24,396 nt of DNA from a virus. The stretch is from positions 1 to 24,396 of the IMG/VR virus record IMGVR_UViG_3300001848_000142, one strand, 5' to 3'. The notes below the pieces were generated by a model. The model saw only the letters and a list, made by a program, of their open reading frames with translations. It was not told the origin of the DNA and searched no databases. A program made the position numbers and the translations under genes. Positions 1-22,203 of the stretch are shown here, piece by piece (within the stretch, counting starts at the first letter, position 1; the number at the start of each line of letters is the position of its first letter).

Positions 1-690
1 GCCAGCAATAATTGTCTTAACTTCTGGCATATGTGGAACAGCAGCCACAAGATTATCTACTCGCTTCCATCTCTTAAATGTTTGTAGAGAAAGAATTTGA
101 TTCTCTCTTCGTGAAAAAGGAATGGTAGATCTAACAGAAGACTTCTGTGGATTTACAATTAACATCCTGGGAATTTCCATCTGTTCTGCTGAGTTCCAGG
201 CAGAAGGATGAACACAAGCTAATCCGGAAATCTTGTCCTTGATCTTCCAGATCCAAGGATAATACTTTAAAAGATTCCCATCGTGTACAATAACAATCTG
301 TTTAACCCTGGAATCCACATTTCGGATCATTCGAACCCAATCTGTTTCTCCTTCTGTTTCCTGACATTTAAACCCGAAAATAGATTCCCAGATAATAATG
401 TCGAACCCATTTGCTTTCTGGATAAATCTATCTACCCAGGCAGAAGAAAGAAAAGGTTCATAGGCAACTCCCCATCCATTTCCTTGATGAATGGGAAGAT
501 TAGATCCTTCGCCTTTTACATAATTAACAAGAGACTTAGTTAATTTAGACCCTTCTTTCTTAGAAGGTTTAACACATACCAATTCCACTTGATGACCAAG
601 ATCTTTAAATCCTGCCATTAACTGTTCTGTGTGATTAATGATTCCACCGTAATTGTTAAAGTCATGAACAACGAATAATATTTTTTTCAT
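1..690 (-). CDS. GT-B glycosyltransferase (GT4-like), 3' end outside window
   Basis: Reading leftward from ATG 688-690 gives 230 codons with no stop, so the gene is cut by the left window edge. The N-terminus (MKKILFVVHDFNNYGGIINH) is a beta strand followed by a Gly-Gly loop, typical of the N-terminal Rossmann domain of GT-B enzymes. Near residues 190-230, RENQILSLQTFKRWKRVDNL followed by a predicted strand ending in IIAG matches the start of the nucleotide-sugar-binding C-terminal domain of GT4 enzymes. It starts 2 nt after the dioxygenase stop, so the two are probably co-transcribed. Family-level call is fairly secure; sugar and acceptor are unknown. I infer that it glycosylates the base oxidised by the upstream dioxygenase; a role in surface glycan synthesis is the alternative. 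Confidence 0.72.
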   Translation of the reverse strand, partial: MKKILFVVHDFNNYGGIINHTEQLMAGFKDLGHQVELVCVKPSKKEGSKLTKSLVNYVKGEGSNLPIHQGNGWGVAYEPFLSSAWVDRFIQKANGFDIIIWESIFGFKCQETEGETDWVRMIRNVDSRVKQIVIVHDGNLLKYYPWIWKIKDKISGLACVHPSAWNSAEQMEIPRMLIVNPQKSSVRSTIPFSRRENQILSLQTFKRWKRVDNLVAAVPHMPEVKTIIAG

Positions 691-692
691 GT

Positions 693-1994
693 TTAAATGT
701 CCAGTGTAGCAAATGTTCCAATGTGCATTTGATCTGCATATTCATGTAATCCAGATTCCATGAGATAATCTCTCCAATCAACAGATTCCCACATACCCGC
801 AGAGATTCCATTCCACTTGTCATGCCAATTCGGATGATTCTTGTTTAACCTGCGAGACTCAACGAAATTAAATCTTGCTTCTTCATATGCTTTAGATTTA
901 CACTCAGACATCTTCTCACGCATATAACACACGACAGAAATTCTTTCGCCTTCTCCGGTGATAGGAGTATTGCCATGAATTTCGTGGACGTCCATCATAA
1001 TTAAATCTCCAGGCTGGACATCTACCGCAGCACGGAAAGCAGGGAAAACAAGATATGCCCCACCATAAGGAATCCCATTAGAAACTACAGATAGATTACC
1101 GAAGCCAGTGGGCAGATCACCAGCGTCTCTATGTGCTGCAGTTCTATATGTTTTGTTAACGGTGATCGTAGTATATGCAGAATTACCGATCCTGAAAGCT
1201 GGATCCAAGTTAGCTACTTCTTTATTTTGAGCAGCCCATCTGCCTGGAATTAATTCATTAAATAATTCAGAAATCCTCTCAATAAAAGGAACAGCAGTAC
1301 TAAACTTGTTGCTTTGATGAGAAGTGTAAGAAGTCGTGCGGCAATACGGAATACGGGGATAGCGATCAAAATAACCAGCAATACCACTGTGAACGGGATT
1401 AGCATATGATGTATCAGAAATCCAATCATTTACTTTTTCTACCTCTTTTAATCTTTCTTCCCAAGGCAATGTTTTTGTGACTGATGCCCAACTTTCAAAG
1501 TCAAATCCTTTTGGTCTTTTAAGAGTTAACCAGACTTGACCTCTAGACCCAACTTCTGTTGAATCTTTGTATTTGACAAATGCTTCTGCTACAGGATCAT
1601 CACCAGTTACAGTAGTTACATTTCCGGAAAGAATATCTAGAACTCTTTCTTGAACTAAAGTAACCCAATCTCTGCCAGTAGATTTTTCAGTTCTAGGACC
1701 AGCAGCAATCCCACGATTCTGAGATTCAACAGCAGCATCTCTTAATCCAGAGTATGCTTGTTTTTGCATCTCTTGAGAGAAAACTCCCTTACGGAATTTA
1801 AGTAGGAGGTAATCTTCTAAATTAGGATTCTTATCTGTAGGAGGAATAGGTTTATACACATCACAATCTTCTTGAAGAAGTACATCGTAATGTGATTCGT
1901 CCAAGAAAGTTCCCAGTAGATCCTCGACCCTTGTGTTTGTGCCTGGGACGCATTCCCACTTCTTTTCTAGAAAAATCTGTTTTGGTTTCTTCAT
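693..1994 (-). CDS. TET/JBP-family 2-oxoglutarate/Fe(II) dioxygenase (thymine/5mC hydroxylase-like)
   Basis: 433 aa from ATG 1992-1994. The C-terminal half carries the full double-stranded beta-helix signature: H288-x-D290 in the motif AAHRDAGD, distal H340 in VHEIHGNTP, and R351 in GERISVVCYMR, which would bind 2-oxoglutarate. The preceding GYFDRYPRIPYCR and TTITVNKTYRTAAHRDAGD, and the following GGAYLVFPAF and VDVQPGDLIMMDVHE, resemble the kinetoplastid JBP and phage TET-like group rather than prolyl hydroxylases. Such enzymes hydroxylate the methyl group of thymine or 5-methylcytosine in DNA. The N-terminal ~190 residues are not recognised. The frame extends upstream to a TTG at 2030 and an ATG at 2012; 1994 is chosen because an almost consensus promoter ends just before it. 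The neighbouring glycosyltransferase suggests hydroxylation followed by glycosylation. Confidence 0.8.
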   Translation of the reverse strand: MKKPKQIFLEKKWECVPGTNTRVEDLLGTFLDESHYDVLLQEDCDVYKPIPPTDKNPNLEDYLLLKFRKGVFSQEMQKQAYSGLRDAAVESQNRGIAAGPRTEKSTGRDWVTLVQERVLDILSGNVTTVTGDDPVAEAFVKYKDSTEVGSRGQVWLTLKRPKGFDFESWASVTKTLPWEERLKEVEKVNDWISDTSYANPVHSGIAGYFDRYPRIPYCRTTSYTSHQSNKFSTAVPFIERISELFNELIPGRWAAQNKEVANLDPAFRIGNSAYTTITVNKTYRTAAHRDAGDLPTGFGNLSVVSNGIPYGGAYLVFPAFRAAVDVQPGDLIMMDVHEIHGNTPITGEGERISVVCYMREKMSECKSKAYEEARFNFVESRRLNKNHPNWHDKWNGISAGMWESVDWRDYLMESGLHEYADQMHIGTFATLDI

Positions 1995-2000
1995 ACTTTT

Positions 2001-2030
2001 ATTATACCTCATTATTATATAGATTGTCAA
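2001..2030 (-). promoter_or_regulatory. sigma70-like promoter abutting the TET/JBP start codon
   Basis: On the minus strand TTGACA (2025-2030) and TATAAT (2001-2006) are separated by 18 bp. Six bases follow before the ATG at 1994, so the expected +1 coincides with the start codon. The -35 box contains the stop codon of the upstream 78-aa gene. A GAGG lies just upstream of the -10 box and could serve read-through mRNA as a long-spaced ribosome site. Confidence 0.6.
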
Positions 2031-2263
2031 ATATTATCTATATCGTCTAATGATTCTCTATATTCTTTCTCAGAAATAGGTTCATCTGTATATTTCATTA
2101 ATTCATATTCACACCAGGTAACCAACTTAGCTAGGATCTTAGACAATTCAAATAGAATTGATGCGATGCCCTGGAAAAAGAATAAGAAAGCTATTACAAC
2201 AAAATGTAAAATTAATACAATAAGAGAAAAAATTCCTATTGTGAATATGCTAAAGTATGCCAT
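2027..2263 (-). CDS. small membrane protein, unknown function
   Basis: 78 aa from ATG 2261-2263, with a good ribosome site (GGGAGA about 6 nt upstream). Residues ~4-32 are very hydrophobic (runs such as IFSLIVLILHFVVIAFLFFF), giving one long or two short membrane segments. An amphipathic stretch and an acidic C-terminal tail (SEKEYRESLDDIDNI) follow and are probably cytoplasmic. It sits 12 nt after the helicase stop and its own stop lies in the promoter of the dioxygenase gene. No family recognised; it could be an early membrane-active phage peptide, but nothing shows a specific role. Confidence 0.6.
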   Translation of the reverse strand: MAYFSIFTIGIFSLIVLILHFVVIAFLFFFQGIASILFELSKILAKLVTWCEYELMKYTDEPISEKEYRESLDDIDNI

Positions 2264-2275
2264 TACAATTCTCCC

Positions 2276-4123
2276 TTAGAATTTGAAACTATTGAACTTA
2301 GCTTTTAAATCAGGTTTACCAGAATATCCAGTTGTATCAAAAGAAGAATCATCTACTGTAGATCCGAATGATTCGTCTGCTGATCCTGCTATCTCGTATA
2401 ACCTCATCTTAGATCTATCAACACCCACAAAGAATTTCTTGTTCATTGAAACATCGTTGTATCTATTCTTTAATTGTTTGACCATTAACTGAGATAACTT
2501 TTCTAATTCGTCTGTATTAATCAAGGCAAACATAAAGTCTGCTGTTGCTGGCAATCCAAAGGATTCAGAAGTATCTGTTAGCTCTACGTCTGAAGAAGAA
2601 AACCCTGTTCTGTTTGTTTGTGTTGCAGTAACTACAGGAACTCCAAATTCAACTGCTAACCCACGGATTTCTTCCGCAATAGATTTAATCATAACATAAG
2701 TGTTTACTTGTGGAGAAAACTTAACTCTTGAAGAAGAACAAATATTCAGATAATCGATGTAGATAATATCAGGAACAAACTTTTTCTTAAGAGCTAATTC
2801 ATTTAACAAATGACGGAAATGATTTACATTTGCTGAAGAAGTGGGATATTCTTTAACAATTAATTTGCCTGCGACTCTTTTCTGTGCTGACGAAATTAAT
2901 TTAACATATTGTTCTTTTGAGATAAGATGTAGATTCTCTAAAGAAATATCCAGTATGTTTGCGTCAATTCTTTCGGCGATTTTTTCTTCTGCCATTTCTA
3001 ATGTAATGTACAGCACATTTTTACCTTGAACCAAATTAGATGTTGCAAAGTGACACATCGCCAAGGATTTTCCGACATTAGTATTATGCGAAGAAATTCC
3101 ATTAGTATAATATCTGTGGTTGGGATGATCTACTTGAATATCAACAATTGGAATATATTTTCCTGTCTTGACAACAGACCCCAATTTAAATTTACCGTCA
3201 TCTGTTAATACTGGAAATTCTTGTGGTGATAATGTTTTAAATTTAGGGTTATTCCATTCTTTTGCCAATTTCCAACCATTGTCAGTTTCGAATAGATGAT
3301 TTTCATTACATCTGACTGTTGGTTTTCCTTCTACATACAATACATATTCTTCCCATATTCCTTTATCTACATAAGAATTGACAGGAACCCAACCGTCAGG
3401 CGAATCTACAAGAACCTCGTAATCTTCTAATAACTCTGAAATTTCAGAAATATTGACGATTTTTTCTTCCCACTTAGTATAATTATGCATATTTTTATAT
3501 AAATACCTGAATCTAATTTTAACTTTTGTATCAGGGTGCACACAACCAGCTAAAATTACATTCAAAGTTTTCTTCGGCAATCCGCCCTTTGTAATATCAT
3601 TTAACTGACTAATATCAAAGGGAATCTTTTCTTCTTTACGATGATAGAAGTCATATCTAGCCTCGTAATCTTCAATGAAATCGTGACCAACTGTTGGATC
3701 AAAAGAAACAGCGAGCGCTTCTTTTAATAGATCTGGAATAATTCCTTTATCTTTTTTCTCTTTTTTGTCTGAGATAATATGGATAGATTCTAGAACTGCA
3801 TTATGAATTGCTTGTTCTTTACAGAAATCTTCTGTCTTAGAAATTAACCATTCTAGATTATTCTCTTCGCCTTCTACATAATCATCTAGAACTTCTGTTG
3901 TGGATCGAATCTCTTCTTCTTTAAGAGAAGAATCAGAAAGGATTACTCTAAGAGCTTCAATTGTTGGAGCTTCGTTATAGGTTCCAATGAAATTGGAGAT
4001 TTGTTTAAATAATGTTTTGTGTGTGAAGTCGGAAAAGTATTCCGACTTCAGATAAGGAAGAGTTGCACGGAAATAATTCTCATTTAATAAAAGCGACTTC
4101 AGAATCAGATTTTCTATTTGCAT
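2276..4123 (-). CDS. 41: replicative DnaB-type helicase (T4 gp41-like) interrupted by a mini-intein
   Basis: The 615-aa precursor is a ~461-aa gp41/DnaB-family helicase plus a 154-aa intein. The extein N-domain (residues 1-193) ends in KKTLNVILAG. The C-domain resumes at T348 with TNVGKSLAMCHF, completing the Walker A P-loop, then VLYITLEMAEEK, Walker B (PDIIYIDYLNIC) and a RecA-fold core with VTATQTNR. The hexamer would unwind the fork ahead of gp43 and activate primase. It follows uvsX and a 121-aa gene, overlapping the latter by 44 nt, an order known from T4-like phages. The start has a good Shine-Dalgarno (GAGAAGG). The uninterrupted P-loop exists only after splicing, so the precursor should be inactive as an ATPase. 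Confidence 0.93.
   Translation of the reverse strand: MQIENLILKSLLLNENYFRATLPYLKSEYFSDFTHKTLFKQISNFIGTYNEAPTIEALRVILSDSSLKEEEIRSTTEVLDDYVEGEENNLEWLISKTEDFCKEQAIHNAVLESIHIISDKKEKKDKGIIPDLLKEALAVSFDPTVGHDFIEDYEARYDFYHRKEEKIPFDISQLNDITKGGLPKKTLNVILAGCVHPDTKVKIRFRYLYKNMHNYTKWEEKIVNISEISELLEDYEVLVDSPDGWVPVNSYVDKGIWEEYVLYVEGKPTVRCNENHLFETDNGWKLAKEWNNPKFKTLSPQEFPVLTDDGKFKLGSVVKTGKYIPIVDIQVDHPNHRYYTNGISSHNTNVGKSLAMCHFATSNLVQGKNVLYITLEMAEEKIAERIDANILDISLENLHLISKEQYVKLISSAQKRVAGKLIVKEYPTSSANVNHFRHLLNELALKKKFVPDIIYIDYLNICSSSRVKFSPQVNTYVMIKSIAEEIRGLAVEFGVPVVTATQTNRTGFSSSDVELTDTSESFGLPATADFMFALINTDELEKLSQLMVKQLKNRYNDVSMNKKFFVGVDRSKMRLYEIAGSADESFGSTVDDSSFDTTGYSGKPDLKAKFNSFKF
3083..3544 (-). other. mini-intein in helicase Walker A loop
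   Basis: In-frame insertion of residues C194-N347 of the helicase precursor. Block A begins CVHPDTKVKIRF. A block-B-like segment is GKPTVRCNENHLFETDNGW. Block F is IPIVDIQVDHPNHRYYTNGI and block G ends SSHN followed by T (+1). The nucleophiles would be Cys1, Asn154 with penultimate His, and Thr+1. There is no LAGLIDADG or HNH motif and 154 residues leaves no room for a homing endonuclease, so it is a mini-intein. The junctions rebuild AG-TNVGKS, a standard P-loop, which fixes the boundaries. Confidence 0.92.
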
Positions 4124-5463: not shown

Positions 5464-5492
5464 ATTATACTACTAACTGAAAAAAGAGTCAA
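5464..5492 (-). promoter_or_regulatory. promoter for uvsX
   Basis: TTGACT (5487-5492), 17-bp spacer, TATAAT (5464-5469) on the minus strand, 15 nt upstream of the ATG with GAGG in between. The -35 box lies within the 3' end of the DNA polymerase gene. Confidence 0.68.
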
Positions 5493-7995
5493 GCGTTGCG
5501 ATCTTTTCGTGTTGCCAACCAATTGCATTTAATATATGTGAGATTGGATCCAAGAAAGTTTTCTCAAATTGCTTTTCCCAATCTACAGAATCTTCCAATT
5601 CAAATTCTTTCGGTAGAACAGAATTAAATGAAATGACATCTTCGTGTATTGAATTGGGCTTCTTCAGATAAAGAAACTTAATCTTTTCTCCTTCAGTTAT
5701 CTCCGCATATTCTGTGGTTAAATTTAATTTCTTTATCATGTGATTAAACAACAAAGATCCTCTCACATGTATAGGAGTTGCTTTTTTGTAAATAGAAGTC
5801 TTGTCTCGATAAGTAGACAATCCATTTACAGATCTAGGAAAAGCAATCTCTTCCGGAGACATAGATTTAAATTTCTCTTTAAAATCAGAGATAAAGTTAA
5901 TCAAATCGTCCTCGCTCTTTGTCATGATAATCTTAAGAGCTTCTTTAATCTTTGCTCTACAAGACCCAGGTGTTGAAGAACGAACCGCTTCAATCCCCAT
6001 AATCTTTAACTTAGGCTCAGAATATCTAACACCTTCTGAATCCCACACATGAAGAATGTATCTTTTCTTTGCTGTCCAGATTCCACGATCTGCAATAGAT
6101 TCTCTCTTCATATACATGGTATTAGAAAACGCATTCATATAATGAGCTAATTCTGCATAAGATGTATCGATAAACGGTCCTACTTGTTCCTGACAAATCT
6201 TGTCAATTAAATTAATGATTTTATCTTTTTCGCCACTCTTAATAAATTTATCAACAATAGGATCGAAATTGATATACACGGAATCAGTATCAACAGCAAT
6301 AATATAATCTCTATCCGTCCCAAGTAATTTATTGAAATATTCATTTAATTTCCTTTCAATCCATCGAATAGACAACTGACCGGACTTTGTAATCCCTTCT
6401 GCTAATCTAGAATCATAGAACCTGAAATAAGAATTCCCCATAGCTCCATAAGCAGAATTTAAAGCAATCTTCTTAGCCATCTGAAGATTCTTGTATTTGG
6501 ATATCTTGTTGGTGTATTCTTTAATGGCTCCTGCGTTCAATTTATTCTTGTTAGCTTCTAATTCCTTCTCAGTTGCTAATTGTAATTTCTTGTATTCTTT
6601 GCGCTGATTAAACATCCACTCCATTAATTCTGGAATGAATCCCTTCTTCTCTTTAGAGAAGAGATACCCATTTGCAGCCATAGTAACATCTGAATCCATA
6701 TCCACAGAAGTTTTTTTGTTAACAAGAGAAGTTATGTCTACATGTCTATAAGAATCTTCTAACAATGTTTCCGGAGAAATATTATATTGTTGAATTAACA
6801 TAGGATAAAGAGAAGTTAAGTCAAAAGAAACGACCCAGCCATGAAACCCAATGATTGGTTCTTTTACATAAGCACCTTCAATTGAATCTGAACCTTTAGA
6901 TTCTTTTCTAGGAGGAATAACAATTCTTTTCTTAAGAAGATGATTGTAGATGATTACATCCCACATTCTTACTTGTGAGAACACATCCTCGAAATTAACC
7001 TTAGCATCATAAGCCATCGTTACTGCTAATTCAATTAACTTCATCTTGTCTTCTAACGCCATGACAAGGAAGATATCGTTTACGTTATAATCAATAAACT
7101 TTTCCCAATCAGAATTATACAGATTCTTTAGAGAACCATATTCAGAATAATCTACTTTTTTGATGCCTAATTCTATGGAAGCAATATGATCTAACTTATA
7201 GGATTCTTGATTTGTATAAGTAAATTTCTTATACAACTCCATCCAATCTAAAACAGCAATCCCAAAGATCTCATATGTTTGTTGCATCTTTCCCATGATT
7301 AAGATCTCTCTTGGCTTTAAGATACGCCAAGGAGACAACCAAGATGCTTTGTTCTCGCCAAACAATTTAGCAATACGATTTACAAGATAAGGGATATCAA
7401 AGAATTTAACATTCCATCCTGTTAAGACGTCGGGAATGTTTTCTTTCCATAACTTAATGAATCTATCTAAGAGATCGTACTCGTCCTTACATTTAATGTA
7501 GTCAAATGCTTTTGTTAATTTTAATGGAGAATATTCTCCGCAACCAAGCACTATCGCAGAATTTTGATTAGAAAATTTAATTGCAATCGCATTTATCTTT
7601 TCTTCTGTTTCTGATATTGTTGGGAATCCTCCTTCTGATTCACATTCAATATCTAGATACGCAATAACAAGATTGTTAATATCCCAAGAAATATCTTCTT
7701 TCCAGTTCTGAGAAATGAATTGATAAGGAGGTTGAATATCTCCATATACGGAGAAATTATCTGCGTCGTGTGAAGTTTGTATAAACTCCTTCACATCTTT
7801 GATTAGACCTGCATCAAAGGGAGAAACAGAATATCCATCTAGATTTTTCCAACCTGTTGGGGCATCTTTAGATTTAGCAGGAACCCAGATAGGAGGATGA
7901 AAGTCTTTTATCTCTTCGTTGATTCTTTGATTGTTTTCCCACTTTCGTAGGAATATCTTGTTACCCCAGGATTGTACATTAGTATAATGATTCAC
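5473..7995 (-). CDS. 43: family B DNA polymerase (T4 gp43-like)
   Basis: 840 aa. The 3'-5' exonuclease motifs are YLDIE (D115, E117), NVKFFD (N195-D200) and YNVND (to D307). The polymerase motifs are A: DLTSLYP at 392-398; B: KKIALNSAYG at 508-517; C: VDTDS at 568-572. All catalytic residues are present. The C-terminus ends TLDSFFS, resembling the sliding-clamp-binding tail of T4 gp43 (LDFLF). The start is GTG at 7993-7995; an in-frame TAA two codons earlier excludes extension and the first residues align with the T4 N-terminus. No Shine-Dalgarno is seen, but TATAAT lies 5 nt upstream. Confidence 0.97.
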   Translation of the reverse strand: MNHYTNVQSWGNKIFLRKWENNQRINEEIKDFHPPIWVPAKSKDAPTGWKNLDGYSVSPFDAGLIKDVKEFIQTSHDADNFSVYGDIQPPYQFISQNWKEDISWDINNLVIAYLDIECESEGGFPTISETEEKINAIAIKFSNQNSAIVLGCGEYSPLKLTKAFDYIKCKDEYDLLDRFIKLWKENIPDVLTGWNVKFFDIPYLVNRIAKLFGENKASWLSPWRILKPREILIMGKMQQTYEIFGIAVLDWMELYKKFTYTNQESYKLDHIASIELGIKKVDYSEYGSLKNLYNSDWEKFIDYNVNDIFLVMALEDKMKLIELAVTMAYDAKVNFEDVFSQVRMWDVIIYNHLLKKRIVIPPRKESKGSDSIEGAYVKEPIIGFHGWVVSFDLTSLYPMLIQQYNISPETLLEDSYRHVDITSLVNKKTSVDMDSDVTMAANGYLFSKEKKGFIPELMEWMFNQRKEYKKLQLATEKELEANKNKLNAGAIKEYTNKISKYKNLQMAKKIALNSAYGAMGNSYFRFYDSRLAEGITKSGQLSIRWIERKLNEYFNKLLGTDRDYIIAVDTDSVYINFDPIVDKFIKSGEKDKIINLIDKICQEQVGPFIDTSYAELAHYMNAFSNTMYMKRESIADRGIWTAKKRYILHVWDSEGVRYSEPKLKIMGIEAVRSSTPGSCRAKIKEALKIIMTKSEDDLINFISDFKEKFKSMSPEEIAFPRSVNGLSTYRDKTSIYKKATPIHVRGSLLFNHMIKKLNLTTEYAEITEGEKIKFLYLKKPNSIHEDVISFNSVLPKEFELEDSVDWEKQFEKTFLDPISHILNAIGWQHEKIATLDSFFS

Positions 7996-11388: not shown

Positions 11389-11783
11389 GTTATAAGGGAA
11401 TTCAACCAATTAAACCTTTTAAATCCATAAGAGGAAAGACAAATCTTACAATCTTCTTTTAACGTAGGAGGCCAGAATTCCTTTGGAACAGCAGAAATTC
11501 CTGTTTCCCAGGCTTGTTTTTCGGAATGTCTATCTCTTCCTTTGTCTCTCCATTCCACGACGTGTCCATATTCGTGGATTAGGAGAGAAGTCAAAGTGTC
11601 ATAGTTTTCGTCCTTCGCATCTTTGTAAAGAATAATGTATCCGTCTTGTCCGGCACAACCATTGATAATTCTGTCTTTTTCTGGAGTTGCAATTGAATCA
11701 TAATAAGTTACGTCTACTTCTACATCAATATCATCTTTCTGGATCCACTCCTTAAGAGCTTCAAAATTTTGTCGTGAAGTCAT
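11385..11783 (-). CDS. small HExxH zinc metallopeptidase-like protein
   Basis: 132 aa from ATG 11781-11783, preceded by GGAG at good spacing; a longer reading to a TTG at 11840 has no ribosome site and would run further into the upstream gene. L-L-I-H70-E71-Y-G-H74 is a zincin active-site helix, and E88 in HSEKQAWETG is a plausible third zinc ligand. The C-terminal region has two cysteines (CKIC) that might bind metal. It overlaps the GMP reductase end by 23 nt. Substrate unknown: prohead or host proteins are possible, and the fold may also be non-proteolytic. Confidence 0.7.
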   Translation of the reverse strand: MTSRQNFEALKEWIQKDDIDVEVDVTYYDSIATPEKDRIINGCAGQDGYIILYKDAKDENYDTLTSLLIHEYGHVVEWRDKGRDRHSEKQAWETGISAVPKEFWPPTLKEDCKICLSSYGFKRFNWLNSLIT

Positions 11784-12786
11784 TAAACACTCCATTAATT
11801 TGATTTGACACTCGAATAAATTTAATGTTCTGGTTGTCAATTAATTGTTCTAAACTGGAACAATTTAAATAAGTACAAGCAGAACGAATACCACCCAAGA
11901 TATCAGTTATAGTATCAGCCAATGGTCCACGATCTGGTAGAGAAACAGTTCTTCCTTCTGCAGTTCTGTAATCATTTATTCCGTGATATTGATCTAGAGC
12001 AGATTGCGATGACATCCCATAAAATTCCTTTGACGTTTCATTGTGTCCTGCCAACATACCACCAAGCATAACATAATTAGCTCCAGCAACAAAAGATTTT
12101 ACAATATCTCCTGGATATCTACACCCACCATCAGACATAATGTATTTGTTATGTATACTATTAACACAATTAAATATTGCTGACAATTGAGGCACACCAA
12201 CGCCAGTCTTTATTCTTGTAGTACAAACAGATCCAGATCCTAATCCGACTTTAATTATATCTGAATGACGGAGATTCTCTATTCCTCTCCCATCCACAAC
12301 ATTCCCGGAAACAATTACCTTATCTGGATACAATTTAGACAATTGTTTTTGGATATCATATGCGATTTCTAGATAAGCATTCGCAACATCGAAACAGATA
12401 TATTTGATTTCTGGATTGTATTCTAGAATCTCTTTTAGATTCCTTAAATCTTTATCAGAAGCACCAACAGAAACTCCAACATATCGTGGATCATATACAT
12501 TACTATTAGACTTATAATCTTCTACTCCATAATGCTTGTGTAGAAAAGTAATCATCTTGAATTGAGATAAAACCTTTGCTACTTCAAAGGTTCCGATCTT
12601 ATCCATATTAGCAGCTACAATAGGAATAGTTGGAGGAAGAGTTTCTTCCTCCTTTGTTTTTCTATTGACAAATGTATATTGAACAGTTAATTCTACTTGC
12701 GACCTAGAAGAGATCCCTGTTTTATTAGGAAGTGGATGTAAAAGAACGTCATCGAAGTCTAATCCGTTGTTAATAATTGAGTACAT
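11761..12786 (-). CDS. guaC: GMP reductase (GuaC-like)
   Basis: 341 aa (beta/alpha)8 enzyme of the IMPDH/GMPR family, converting GMP to IMP and ammonia with NADPH. The loop GLGSGSVCTTRIKTGVGVPQ places catalytic Cys at 188. No CBS domains interrupt the barrel, unlike most IMPDH. The C-terminal region EFYGMSSQSALDQ, YRTAEGRTVSLPDRGPLADT, DILGGIRSACTY and FIRVSNQINGVF matches GMP reductase over IMPDH. The start is ATG 12784-12786 with AGGAAAG upstream; an upstream TTG lies inside dUTPase. The gene begins 1 nt after the dUTPase stop, forming a nucleotide-metabolism pair. Confidence 0.9.
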   Translation of the reverse strand: MYSIINNGLDFDDVLLHPLPNKTGISSRSQVELTVQYTFVNRKTKEEETLPPTIPIVAANMDKIGTFEVAKVLSQFKMITFLHKHYGVEDYKSNSNVYDPRYVGVSVGASDKDLRNLKEILEYNPEIKYICFDVANAYLEIAYDIQKQLSKLYPDKVIVSGNVVDGRGIENLRHSDIIKVGLGSGSVCTTRIKTGVGVPQLSAIFNCVNSIHNKYIMSDGGCRYPGDIVKSFVAGANYVMLGGMLAGHNETSKEFYGMSSQSALDQYHGINDYRTAEGRTVSLPDRGPLADTITDILGGIRSACTYLNCSSLEQLIDNQNIKFIRVSNQINGVFNDFTTKF

Positions 12787-12787
12787 A

Positions 12788-13297
12788 TTACTTTCCTGTA
12801 GAACCAAAGCCTCCTACTCGATTTCCTTTGACTTCGGGTGCAACAGGAGAATTAAACAATTCATATTTTAATTGGGGGACCAATTCTCCCTGACAAATTC
12901 TTTCTCCGTGTTTAATCACAACAGCAAGAGAAGTGTTATTTTGTACTAGAATGTATACTTGATCCACATAATCAGAATCAATAACTCCTTCTGCGTTCGC
13001 TAGAGTAATTCCACATTTTGCAGCTAAAGAAGATCGGATATGCAATCTGACAGAATATCCTTGTGGAATGTCAAAGATAAGTCCAGTTGGAATTAAAACT
13101 CTGCTACCTGGATCCACCCAGAATTCCGATTGTACATATGGCTTAACAGTTGTTTTGTAGTTTAATGTAGACCAAGAAGAGATCGGGAAATCTGGGTGGA
13201 TAAATGCCTTTAGATCAAAGCAAGCAGAAGCCCAGGTAGCGAATTCTGGAGAAAAAACTTCTGGATGCATCTTAAAATATTTCAACGTTGGATTCAT
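12788..13297 (-). CDS. dut: trimeric dUTPase
   Basis: 169 aa. All five dUTPase motifs are present in order: ASACFDL (motif 1), HIRSSLA (2, with the Ser-Ser pair), NAEGVIDSDYVDQVYI (3, with catalytic Asp), GERICQGELVP (4) and RVGGFGSTGK (5, the C-terminal lid). It hydrolyses dUTP to dUMP, keeps uracil out of DNA and supplies dUMP. A ~40-residue insertion between motifs 1 and 2 (HPDFPISSWSTLNYKTTVKP) is longer than in minimal dUTPases. Strong GAGGGAA ribosome site and own promoter. Separate from dCTP deaminase by its C-terminal motif 5. Confidence 0.93.
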   Translation of the reverse strand: MNPTLKYFKMHPEVFSPEFATWASACFDLKAFIHPDFPISSWSTLNYKTTVKPYVQSEFWVDPGSRVLIPTGLIFDIPQGYSVRLHIRSSLAAKCGITLANAEGVIDSDYVDQVYILVQNNTSLAVVIKHGERICQGELVPQLKYELFNSPVAPEVKGNRVGGFGSTGK

Positions 13298-18663: not shown

Positions 18664-18939
18664 ATGCCATATTACGATTATTCTTGTTCTACATGTGATT
18701 ACACTTTCGAACGTTCTCTGCAAATGTCTCGGGTCGACGAACCCACCGAATCTCCTTGTCCTAATTGTTCTTCTATGACAATAACAAATGTAATTGGTGC
18801 GCCATTAGTATGTGATCCAGTCAGAATTGGAGTTAAGAAAGCACCAACAGATTTTCAGAAATATGTGATGGGAAAAATTCAAGCTAAACACCCAAAGGGA
18901 AACGTATTCCAAAAATCATCGAAACCAAGAGAGATTTAA
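18664..18939 (+). CDS. FmdB-like zinc-ribbon protein
   Basis: 91 aa. The N-terminus [18 protein letters not shown] with CPNC at residues ~37-40 gives a CxxC...CxxC zinc ribbon of the FmdB/putative regulatory protein family. The rest ([22 protein letters not shown]) is basic and unrecognised. The ATG at 18664 is chosen for its GAGG ribosome site and late promoter; the same frame runs further upstream through the MoxR-like gene and terminator but has no support there. It overlaps the convergent homing endonuclease by 4 nt. Possible role: late nucleic-acid-binding or regulatory factor; function unproven. Confidence 0.8.
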
Positions 18940-19586
18940 TTCTTCTTATTAAGGTTTCTTCTTTTGAGTTGAGAGTCAGACATTTTTTTCTTAGTTTCTT
19001 CTGATATTGGATGTGTTGTTTTTATTGATTTGCCTTTGTTCCAAGGCGCACGACCTCTCATCCGATAAGAAACTTTATTCCTTTCTTCTTTGTTATTAAA
19101 CCTTTGTTTTTGTGAAGATGACATCCTTTGTTTTGATTCTTGACTGTGTGTTTTACCGTAAAAAGGATTATCTTCTCCTCGTTTTTGTTTATTATTTTCA
19201 GATATTTTTTTCCTGGTTTCTTCTGAATGCGATTTTCCTAACCAATATCTAGTCGGATTAATCTTTTTAGAGTCAGACAGTTTTTTCCTGGTTTCTTCTG
19301 ATCTTTTTTTACCTTTTTGATTGGGAGGAGTATCCCCTCCGTTAGTCATATTCCGAAGAATACCAGTTCCAATATCTTTTCTACCATATTTAGAAATCAA
19401 TTCTATTTCAAGGTTAAATGCTTCTTCTTCTGTTAATTTATCTTGTATTATTTGGATTCTAGAAGGGTCTTTTGGTACATAAATTCTGTGTGGAGCATAA
19501 GCTCTGTTCCCCTTTCCTTTACCGATGTAATATGGAGTGCCATCTTCTCTGAGGTAGGCATAGACGTAATAAATAGATGTAGACAT
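18936..19586 (-). CDS. GIY-YIG homing endonuclease with NUMOD repeats (copy 1)
   Basis: 216 aa. The GIY-YIG core starts at the N-terminus ([20 protein letters not shown], residues 6-25), with R at GNR and the catalytic Glu in [19 protein letters not shown] follows. The rest is several NUMOD3-like DNA-binding repeats ([51 protein letters not shown]). Not in an intron: it stands alone between the zinc-ribbon gene and phoH, opposite to both. Its first 28 residues match copy 2 (22203-21487) and the DNA upstream is also shared. It would cut a related genome lacking the insertion and spread by repair. Confidence 0.92.
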
Positions 19587-21103: not shown

Positions 21104-21509
21104 AGATGCTATTGCTCAGGATTTAAAGATTGATCGATTTAATCTAGTTGATGAATCAGCAAGAACTCCTAATCTATTCTCAAAGTATCTCTCTATTTAC
21201 ATGGACGAGAAAGCTAAGTTAAGAGCCATACAAAGAAAGTTCTGGGAGACCTACAAAGAGAGAAGAGAATATTATTCAGGCTCTGCAGGAGACGATAAAT
21301 ATAAAGAAGAACCGTTTGACCGTAAGATTATTAGACAAGATCTGGATATATGGTTAGACGCAGATAACAAAATTCAGGATCTAAAAGATCGTCTGACTTT
21401 CCAAGAATTAATAGTAGAGATCTTAGAGAGAACTCTAAAGGAAATTAATAATCGAAACTACGTCATTAGATGTATGATCGATGTTATTAAGTTCGAGAAC
21501 GGATCTTAG
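21084..21509 (+). CDS. uvsY: UvsY recombination mediator
   Basis: 141 aa, close to the 137 of T4 UvsY. The N-terminus MKLEEIKDAIAQDLKID parallels T4 MRLEDLQEELKKD. The central REYYSGSAGDD matches T4 LDYYSGRGDGDE, and the C-terminus (NYVIRCMIDVIKFENG) matches FAIKHIQDMRAFEAG. UvsY loads UvsX onto gp32-coated ssDNA. The start is TTG at 21084 with GAGG at ideal spacing, and the alignment with T4 from residue 1 supports it. It is convergent with homing endonuclease 2, overlapping by 23 nt, and is separated from uvsW by that insertion. Confidence 0.9.
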   Translation: MKLEEIKDAIAQDLKIDRFNLVDESARTPNLFSKYLSIYMDEKAKLRAIQRKFWETYKERREYYSGSAGDDKYKEEPFDRKIIRQDLDIWLDADNKIQDLKDRLTFQELIVEILERTLKEINNRNYVIRCMIDVIKFENGS

Positions 21510-22203
21510 GATTTTGTTTACAATTATCGAAATGAAATCTTTTCATACCACTTCCACCGCCAATTAAAAAACAATAAGGACACATAGAAGTTGGAAGTTT
21601 CTTCCCTTTTTTAGATTCTGCGATTTTAATTCTGGATTCTTCTGAATGTTTTTTTCCGAAGAAAGGATTATTCTTTCCCTTTGTTTTAGCAGATATCTTA
21701 TTTCTAGAAGATTCAGAATGTAATACATAACCAGATTTGTTCTTATTCCAAGGTATAAAATTCTGTTTCTTCTCCGACATTATCTGTTTAGTTTCTTCTG
21801 TATGTTTCTTACCAAAGAAAGATCCTTTTTCCCCTTTTCTTGATTCAGACATCTTTCTTTTAGTCTCTTCTGAATGAATTTTATCTTTTTGAGATTCTGA
21901 TCGTTTCCTTCTCATTTCTTCTGTTATTACCAAACCAGAGAAACATTTTCCGCCATCTGTCAAATTCCTCAAAATACCAGTACCGTTATCTTTTCTCCCA
22001 TAATATGCAATTAATTTAGATTCTTCTAATAATGCTTCTTCTTCTGTTAAATTGTTTTTAATAATTATACGTCTTGAGTTTTCTTTTGGAACTGAGATAT
22101 GTTTGTGGTTTTCTGTTATTCTATTTCCTTTACCTTTTCCTATGTAGTAAGGAGTTCCGTCTTCTCTGAGGTATGCATAGACGTAATAAATAGATGTAGA
22201 CAT
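21487..22203 (-). CDS. GIY-YIG homing endonuclease with NUMOD repeats (copy 2)
   Basis: 238 aa paralogue of copy 1, with the same first 28 residues (core [20 protein letters not shown]). The Glu in LEESKLIAYYG and LRNLTDGG complete the nuclease domain. It carries more NUMOD3-type repeats (SEETKRKMSESRK, TEETKQIMSEKK, SESSRNKISAKTK, SEESRIKIAESKK). Unlike copy 1 it ends with a possible zinc finger, CPYC...H...C (LPTSMCPYCFLIGGG, then FHFDNC). Inserted between uvsY and uvsW on the opposite strand, with the shared upstream hairpin. The strong match near the 5' end suggests recent duplication or gene conversion. Confidence 0.92.
   Translation of the reverse strand: MSTSIYYVYAYLREDGTPYYIGKGKGNRITENHKHISVPKENSRRIIIKNNLTEEEALLEESKLIAYYGRKDNGTGILRNLTDGGKCFSGLVITEEMRRKRSESQKDKIHSEETKRKMSESRKGEKGSFFGKKHTEETKQIMSEKKQNFIPWNKNKSGYVLHSESSRNKISAKTKGKNNPFFGKKHSEESRIKIAESKKGKKLPTSMCPYCFLIGGGSGMKRFHFDNCKQNPKIRSRT

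Follow-up and report, generated by a model that had tools for sequence, protein, structure and literature searches.

A TET/JBP dioxygenase paired with a GT4-type glycosyltransferase as a candidate DNA hypermodification unit in T4-like phages

The window analysed here spans an entire IMG/VR record (24,396 bp) and is a fragment of a T4-like phage; it carries at its left end a gene for a 433-aa dioxygenase of the TET/JBP family, for which oxidation of thymine or 5-methylcytosine (5mC) is predicted. This length is counted from an ATG; if an upstream TTG is used instead, the protein has 445 aa and the frame ends at 2030. A glycosyltransferase gene follows the dioxygenase gene so closely that the two appear to be coupled as in an operon, and a replicative helicase and a small membrane-protein-like gene lie on its other side (Table 1).

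Table 1. Features of the window that bear on the predicted modification pathway (coordinates of the 24,396-bp window)
Feature	Position	Strand	Basis or remark
GT-B (GT4-type) glycosyltransferase, N-terminal 230 residues	1..690	-	74% identity to the N-terminal half of the L004 transferase
2 nt separating the TET stop codon from the start of the glycosyltransferase gene (operon-like coupling)	691..692	-	read from sequence
TET/JBP 2-oxoglutarate/Fe(II) dioxygenase, 433 aa	693..1994	-	Pfam Tet_JBP, phrog_24024, structure match
R351, 2-oxoglutarate-binding arginine (RxS)	942..944	-	invariant in 55 relatives
H340, third iron ligand (IHGNT)	975..977	-	invariant in 55 relatives
H288-R289-D290, HxD iron ligands	1125..1133	-	read from sequence; H and D invariant in 55 relatives
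Short membrane-protein-like gene, 78 aa, in the helicase-TET interval	2027..2263	-	like-sized hydrophobic ORFs in L002, L003 and L004
Replicative DNA helicase, T4 gp41 type, with intein; fixed upstream neighbour	2276..4123	-	order as in L002, L003 and L004
DNA polymerase C-terminal tail ...ATLDSFFS, clamp-binding type	5473..5499	-	also found in the TET, GT4, TAGT and acetyltransferase families of relatives

The assignment of the 433-aa protein draws on profiles, residues and structure. In a Pfam search, Tet_JBP (PF12851) matched residues 217-372 with 69.8 bits (cut-off 34.9, E=2e-19), and the second-best profile, 2OG-FeII_Oxy_3, stayed under its own cut-off, so no other 2-oxoglutarate oxygenase family claims the protein. 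The unnamed phage family phrog_24024 spans residues 31-430. An earlier sequence-only reading had seen the full HxD...H...R set of the TET/JBP group in this protein, and an alignment of 55 TET relatives bears this out, with no variation at H288, D290, H340 or R351. The AlphaFold model (pLDDT 88) matched NgTET1, CcTet, TET2 and CMD1 at PDB ranks 1-26, with E-values of about 1e-10 for the best structures (NgTET1, CcTet and TET2), and FTO appeared from rank 27. Searched as a single sequence, the protein found no match among solved structures; a profile search gave a weak match to TET2. At least 560 stretches in IMG/VR contain TET relatives. The genome collection that we searched held only three, all distant and chromosomal, and a DNA-level search of isolate phages with the window returned only short polymerase/exonuclease matches. 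Full-length relatives are encoded by the isolates DLP6, Cr30 and S-CBWM1 at 30-46% identity (46% in DLP6). These three proteins are labelled 'SNF2 DNA repair protein' despite their Tet_JBP match, which looks like a misannotation.

The N-terminal ~190 residues had been thought to be possibly a second enzyme. We find that residues 1 to ~100 align with the shorter TETs of phages HTVC112P and P12024L (FLDES..D / KN / RGxAxG), and that, compared with them, the inserted stretch covers only residues ~110-190. Since the first 100 residues are common to the shorter phage TETs, the N-terminal part is mostly TET core, and a foreign domain or second enzyme was rejected for that stretch.

The glycosyltransferase of the window runs off the contig end after 230 residues, before its C-terminus, and the Pfam matches of this fragment are all under cut-off. 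A relative at locus L004 has a full-length transferase of 439 aa, whose N-terminal half is 74% identical to the fragment. This protein matches Glycos_transf_1 with 34.8 bits (cut-off 26.4), and its structural model (pLDDT 91) matches GT-B/GT4 folds, in agreement with the GT-B glycosyltransferase that had been read from the letters 2 nt downstream of TET. The nearest solved folds include GT4 enzymes acting on surface glycans and small molecules; T4 alpha-glucosyltransferase with DNA is also among the matches, though other folds rank higher. PF20691 (TAGT) did not match the L004 transferase or any of the GT4-type records searched, tblastn with the transferase found no relative in isolate phages, and no PHROG family was found for it.

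A search with the transferase alone recovered 60 loci. Among the 53 whose upstream sequence was long enough to judge, TET directly precedes it in 51, a count that includes L096 after correction of an over-long start and in which the loci are not independent events, since some contigs are near-copies. The spacing between the two genes ranges from about -3 to +11 nt across relatives. The two exceptions are L151, whose transferase is 34% identical and has no adjoining TET, and L105, where an ORF intervenes. The GT4-type transferase is thus a dedicated partner of TET in a near-obligate pairing. The intervening ORF of L105 (6862-7527) resembles a GIY-YIG homing endonuclease and sits exactly between TET and GT4.

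Behind TET, four cassette types were distinguished in the relatives: GT4; TAGT (TET-associated glycosyltransferase, PF20691); GATase-GNAT-ADDT (PF18724)-kinase; and GATase-amidoligase-like, the last often with ADDT and kinase farther along. GATase stands for glutamine amidotransferase, GNAT for an acetyltransferase and ADDT for amino acid:DNA transferase. In L002, L003 and L004 the cassette occupies one and the same site, in the order helicase, small hydrophobic ORF, TET, cassette and convergent virion gene. A clade of only four members (the window, L004, L002 and L019) contains GT4, GATase-GNAT-ADDT and TAGT cassettes, and a FastTree phylogeny of TET requires at least 18 switches among the four types. 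Two TETs that are 95.5% identical are followed by GT4 in one case and TAGT in the other; a pair at 89% identity differs by GT4 versus GATase-amidoligase, and one at 86% by GT4 versus GATase-GNAT-ADDT. ADDT or GATase occurs in 0 of 36 GT4 neighbourhoods, while 46 other neighbourhoods have one or both. These data demonstrate that TET is constant while its finishing cassette is swapped between close relatives. All cassette partners have one thing in common, a DNA-borne hydroxymethyl group.

Several loci hold further variants. About 24 TET rows have a GATase and an amidoligase-like gene right behind TET (for instance L040:8622-9518, L068 and relatives), suggesting amide formation either on the base in DNA or on an amino acid attached to it, with an amidoligase match that is weak and under the Pfam cut-off (E=0.032). 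In phage C48C1 (L011, 9323-11355) TET is followed by a 344-aa protein and a UDP-galactopyranose mutase, which could point to galactofuranose on DNA. In S-CBWM1 (L012, 5207-7921) the genes behind TET encode TAGT, then a phosphatase of the sugar/capsule type, a nucleotidyltransferase and a protein like APH/choline kinase, a set possibly serving a larger sugar or phosphocholine decoration. Another cassette type, in L039, L047 and L053, encodes proteins of 121, 335 and 151 aa, the latter two of which had no Pfam match. Relatives of the cassette kinase, in Cr30 (L010, 16313-16858) and in phrog_800, are labelled 'terminase small subunit', which looks like another misannotation. A mini-intein interrupts the P-loop of the window's gp41-type helicase (LAG|C...HN|TNVGKS) and is absent from L004, and intein-like insertions and homing endonuclease ORFs are found in the helicase and UvsX genes of L002.

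Many of these enzymes end like a DNA polymerase. The polymerase gp43 of T4 ends in KASLDFLFG, and a tail of this type binds the sliding clamp gp45 (PMC2988020). We looked for proteins whose extreme C-terminus fits the SLExFF-like pattern [STN]L[DE]x[FLM][FLIY]. As the pattern was written after the first tails had been seen, its counts describe a regularity with a measured background rather than a blind test: it occurs in 32/34 GT4 proteins and 59/90 TETs compared with 24/1287 other proteins, these 24 being mostly DNA polymerase, acetyltransferase and TAGT, and by family in 5 of 56 (GT4 94%, polymerase 83%, TET 68%, TAGT 60%, acetyltransferase 50%). The full-length transferase of L004 carries such a tail; the TET of the window ends in ATLDI, without one, and its nine-member clade likewise ends in LDI. 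T4 alpha-glucosyltransferase (alpha-GT) co-purifies with gp45 (PMC13216743), and neither it nor beta-GT has a SLExFF-type tail. Polymerase-like tails suggest DNA as the substrate and modification coupled to the replication fork, and from its sequence the tail is predicted to bind a gp45-type clamp, on which the enzymes of most family members probably ride.

Which base is oxidised had been left between thymine and 5mC, with a search for a DNA methyltransferase as one way forward. As the window is only a 24-kb fragment, the search was made in relatives. We identified no C5-cytosine methyltransferase (PF00145) in the complete genomes of the isolates DLP6, Cr30, C48C1 and S-CBWM1, all of which have full-length TET relatives. 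Another 19 virus records, of 25-197 kb, also had none; they include a GT4-type record of 197 kb and an amidoligase-type record of 173 kb. As a positive control, the profile detected the HhaI-like methyltransferase of Melnitz, directly upstream of a distant TET. A hydroxymethylase-type gene (PF00303) was missing from all 19 virus records, making hydroxylation before polymerisation unlikely; among the first 14 records, Cr30 alone had one. ADDT homologues occur in phages of Salmonella, Klebsiella, Dickeya, Serratia and Erwinia, which we take to be largely of the ViI group. The modified T of phage ViI derives from 5-hydroxymethyl-dU (5hmdU) (PMC6449724). Thymine is therefore favoured over 5mC on two counts, the absence of a C5-methyltransferase from the relatives, complete genomes included, and the tie of the ADDT relatives to a ViI-type, 5hmdU-derived modification. 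Thymine chemistry is not the only setting in which these partners occur, since TAGT and T4 alpha-GT are described as acting on 5hmC and the kinase is also present in Melnitz, which has a C5-methyltransferase. Given that DNA is modified, these sequence comparisons make thymine the probable substrate, which narrows the earlier pair of bases. Two other markers were discarded: the residue at D+3 of the HxD motif, which varies (window D, C48C1 S, S-CBWM1 N) and does not discriminate between T and C, and the cassette kinase, dropped as a sign of thymine given its presence in Melnitz.

We propose that TET and GT4 form a post-replicative two-enzyme unit of DNA hypermodification, in which thymine is oxidised and then glycosylated, and put the probability of this reading at roughly 0.65. 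Acting on phage DNA that has just been synthesised, TET would oxidise the thymine methyl group, giving 5hmdU, and the GT4-type transferase would add a sugar to the new hydroxyl, yielding a glycosylated hydroxymethyluracil resembling base J that may block host nucleases. As oxidation would occur within finished DNA, neither a pre-made special nucleotide nor a cytosine methyltransferase would be needed. That the base is changed after DNA synthesis and then glycosylated had already been suggested for this locus; the comparative evidence supports that order, with the product itself predicted. The finishing step would vary with the cassette, which is either a glycosyltransferase (GT4 or TAGT) or a GATase combined with ADDT, kinase and one of GNAT or amidoligase. 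Enzymes held by the clamp could let modification follow the replication fork, and the clamp tail would have been lost from TET in the window's own clade. We offer more tentatively, and with some doubt, the fuller picture of a replisome-tethered base J-like pathway in which thymine is oxidised behind the fork and a plug-in cassette determines whether the base receives a sugar (from GT4 or TAGT) or an amino acid, which may in turn be amidated. In DLP6, the TAGT lies about 3 kb from TET; this phage has TAGT, not GT4, and lacks a C5-methyltransferase. Its DNA is resistant to restriction enzymes (Table 1 of PMC8228603), an experimental hint of modification for which TET may be responsible.

The proposed unit shares elements with several known systems. 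Phage TET/JBP enzymes accompanied by glycosyltransferases, with TET-derived hydroxymethyl groups as starting bases, have reportedly been predicted or shown. In the phage TET-TAGT system, cytosine is said to be hypermodified from 5mC made by a phage C5-methyltransferase. Like the window, that system has a TET/JBP dioxygenase followed by a glycosyltransferase, but it includes the methyltransferase that we did not find in the window's relatives, and its TAGT is of the GT-A type while the partner in the window is GT-B/GT4. The base J pathway of kinetoplastids (JBP1/2 and JGT) is like our proposal in that thymine is oxidised in DNA and then glycosylated. According to a 2019 paper, no phage had been reported to carry glucosylated 5hmdU (PMC6449724). 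The thymidine hypermodification of M6, ViI and phiW-14 proceeds through 5hmdU, a kinase and an amino acid:DNA transferase, and ADDT with kinase is an alternative cassette here. In those phages 5hmdU is thought to enter while the DNA replicates (PMC6449724), whereas in our proposal TET would form it later, within DNA already made, and PF00303 genes are largely absent. T4, with its glucosyl-5hmC (gp42, alpha-GT and beta-GT), resembles the present case as a T4-like phage with DNA glycosylation by GT-B folds, but it hydroxylates dCMP before polymerisation, whereas the window's system would act after synthesis; in addition, the T4 transferases lack the tail that the GT4 enzymes of the window's relatives mostly have.

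Could the same steps act on cytosine? A methyltransferase of the host, or one of the phage that escaped our view, would then supply 5mC, TET would oxidise it to 5hmC and the transferase would glycosylate it. The characterised phage TET systems reportedly use 5mC, TAGT does occur as a TET partner, and in Melnitz a methyltransferase adjoins TET. We nonetheless consider this version unlikely, as PF00145 is missing from the four complete isolate genomes as well as the 19 further virus records, and the same TET is also found with ADDT, relatives of which take part in thymidine hypermodification; a host source of 5mC would answer the former point.

Two other explanations appear less probable than modification of either base by the pair. 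The glycosyltransferase might have nothing to do with DNA, decorating host surface sugars for example, and lie beside TET by chance, as the GT4 enzymes for surface glycans and small molecules among its nearest folds could suggest. It would seem most unlikely that chance accounts for the 51/53 pairing, for polymerase-like tails on 32/34 GT4 proteins, for the mutual exclusion of GT4 and ADDT cassettes at one site and for a fold that also matches the DNA-bound T4 alpha-glucosyltransferase. TET-type enzymes are able to oxidise stepwise, and the TET of this family might go past the alcohol to a carboxylic acid on which amidoligase cassettes build an amide on the base, as the genes directly behind about 24 of the TETs would fit. 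This too we regard as quite improbable: most of these loci have ADDT and a kinase nearby, so that an attached amino acid could carry the amide instead, the match to amidoligase is weak, and the idea has no bearing on the GT4 type of the window. We accordingly retain thymine oxidation followed by glycosylation as the preferred reading.

The general idea of DNA modification by TET and a glycosyltransferase has been predicted before. Four points appear to be new, and we found none of them described in the open literature: GT4 as the partner, the swapping of cassettes behind a single TET, the argument for thymine in this clade, and the clamp tails. The TET-GT4 pair is a concrete candidate for a source of glucosylated hydroxymethyluracil in phages, and if thymine is the substrate, T would be hypermodified by phages that make no special nucleotides. 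With a constant TET and exchangeable finishers, a lineage could switch its DNA disguise in a single step. The shared clamp tails would link modification directly to the replication fork, and the tail may serve as a cheap sequence marker by which T4-like phages could be screened for more enzymes that modify DNA. A T hydroxylase active on plain DNA, together with matching transferases, could also make useful tools.

Elsewhere in the window, two homing-endonuclease-like ORFs (18936-19586 and 21487-22203, minus strand) share the same N-terminus (28 protein letters) and run on the strand opposite to the surrounding genes; the former has NUMOD3 repeats. An IMP dehydrogenase/GMP reductase-like gene (11761-12807, minus strand, phrog_9582) adjoins a dUTPase gene at 12788-13297.
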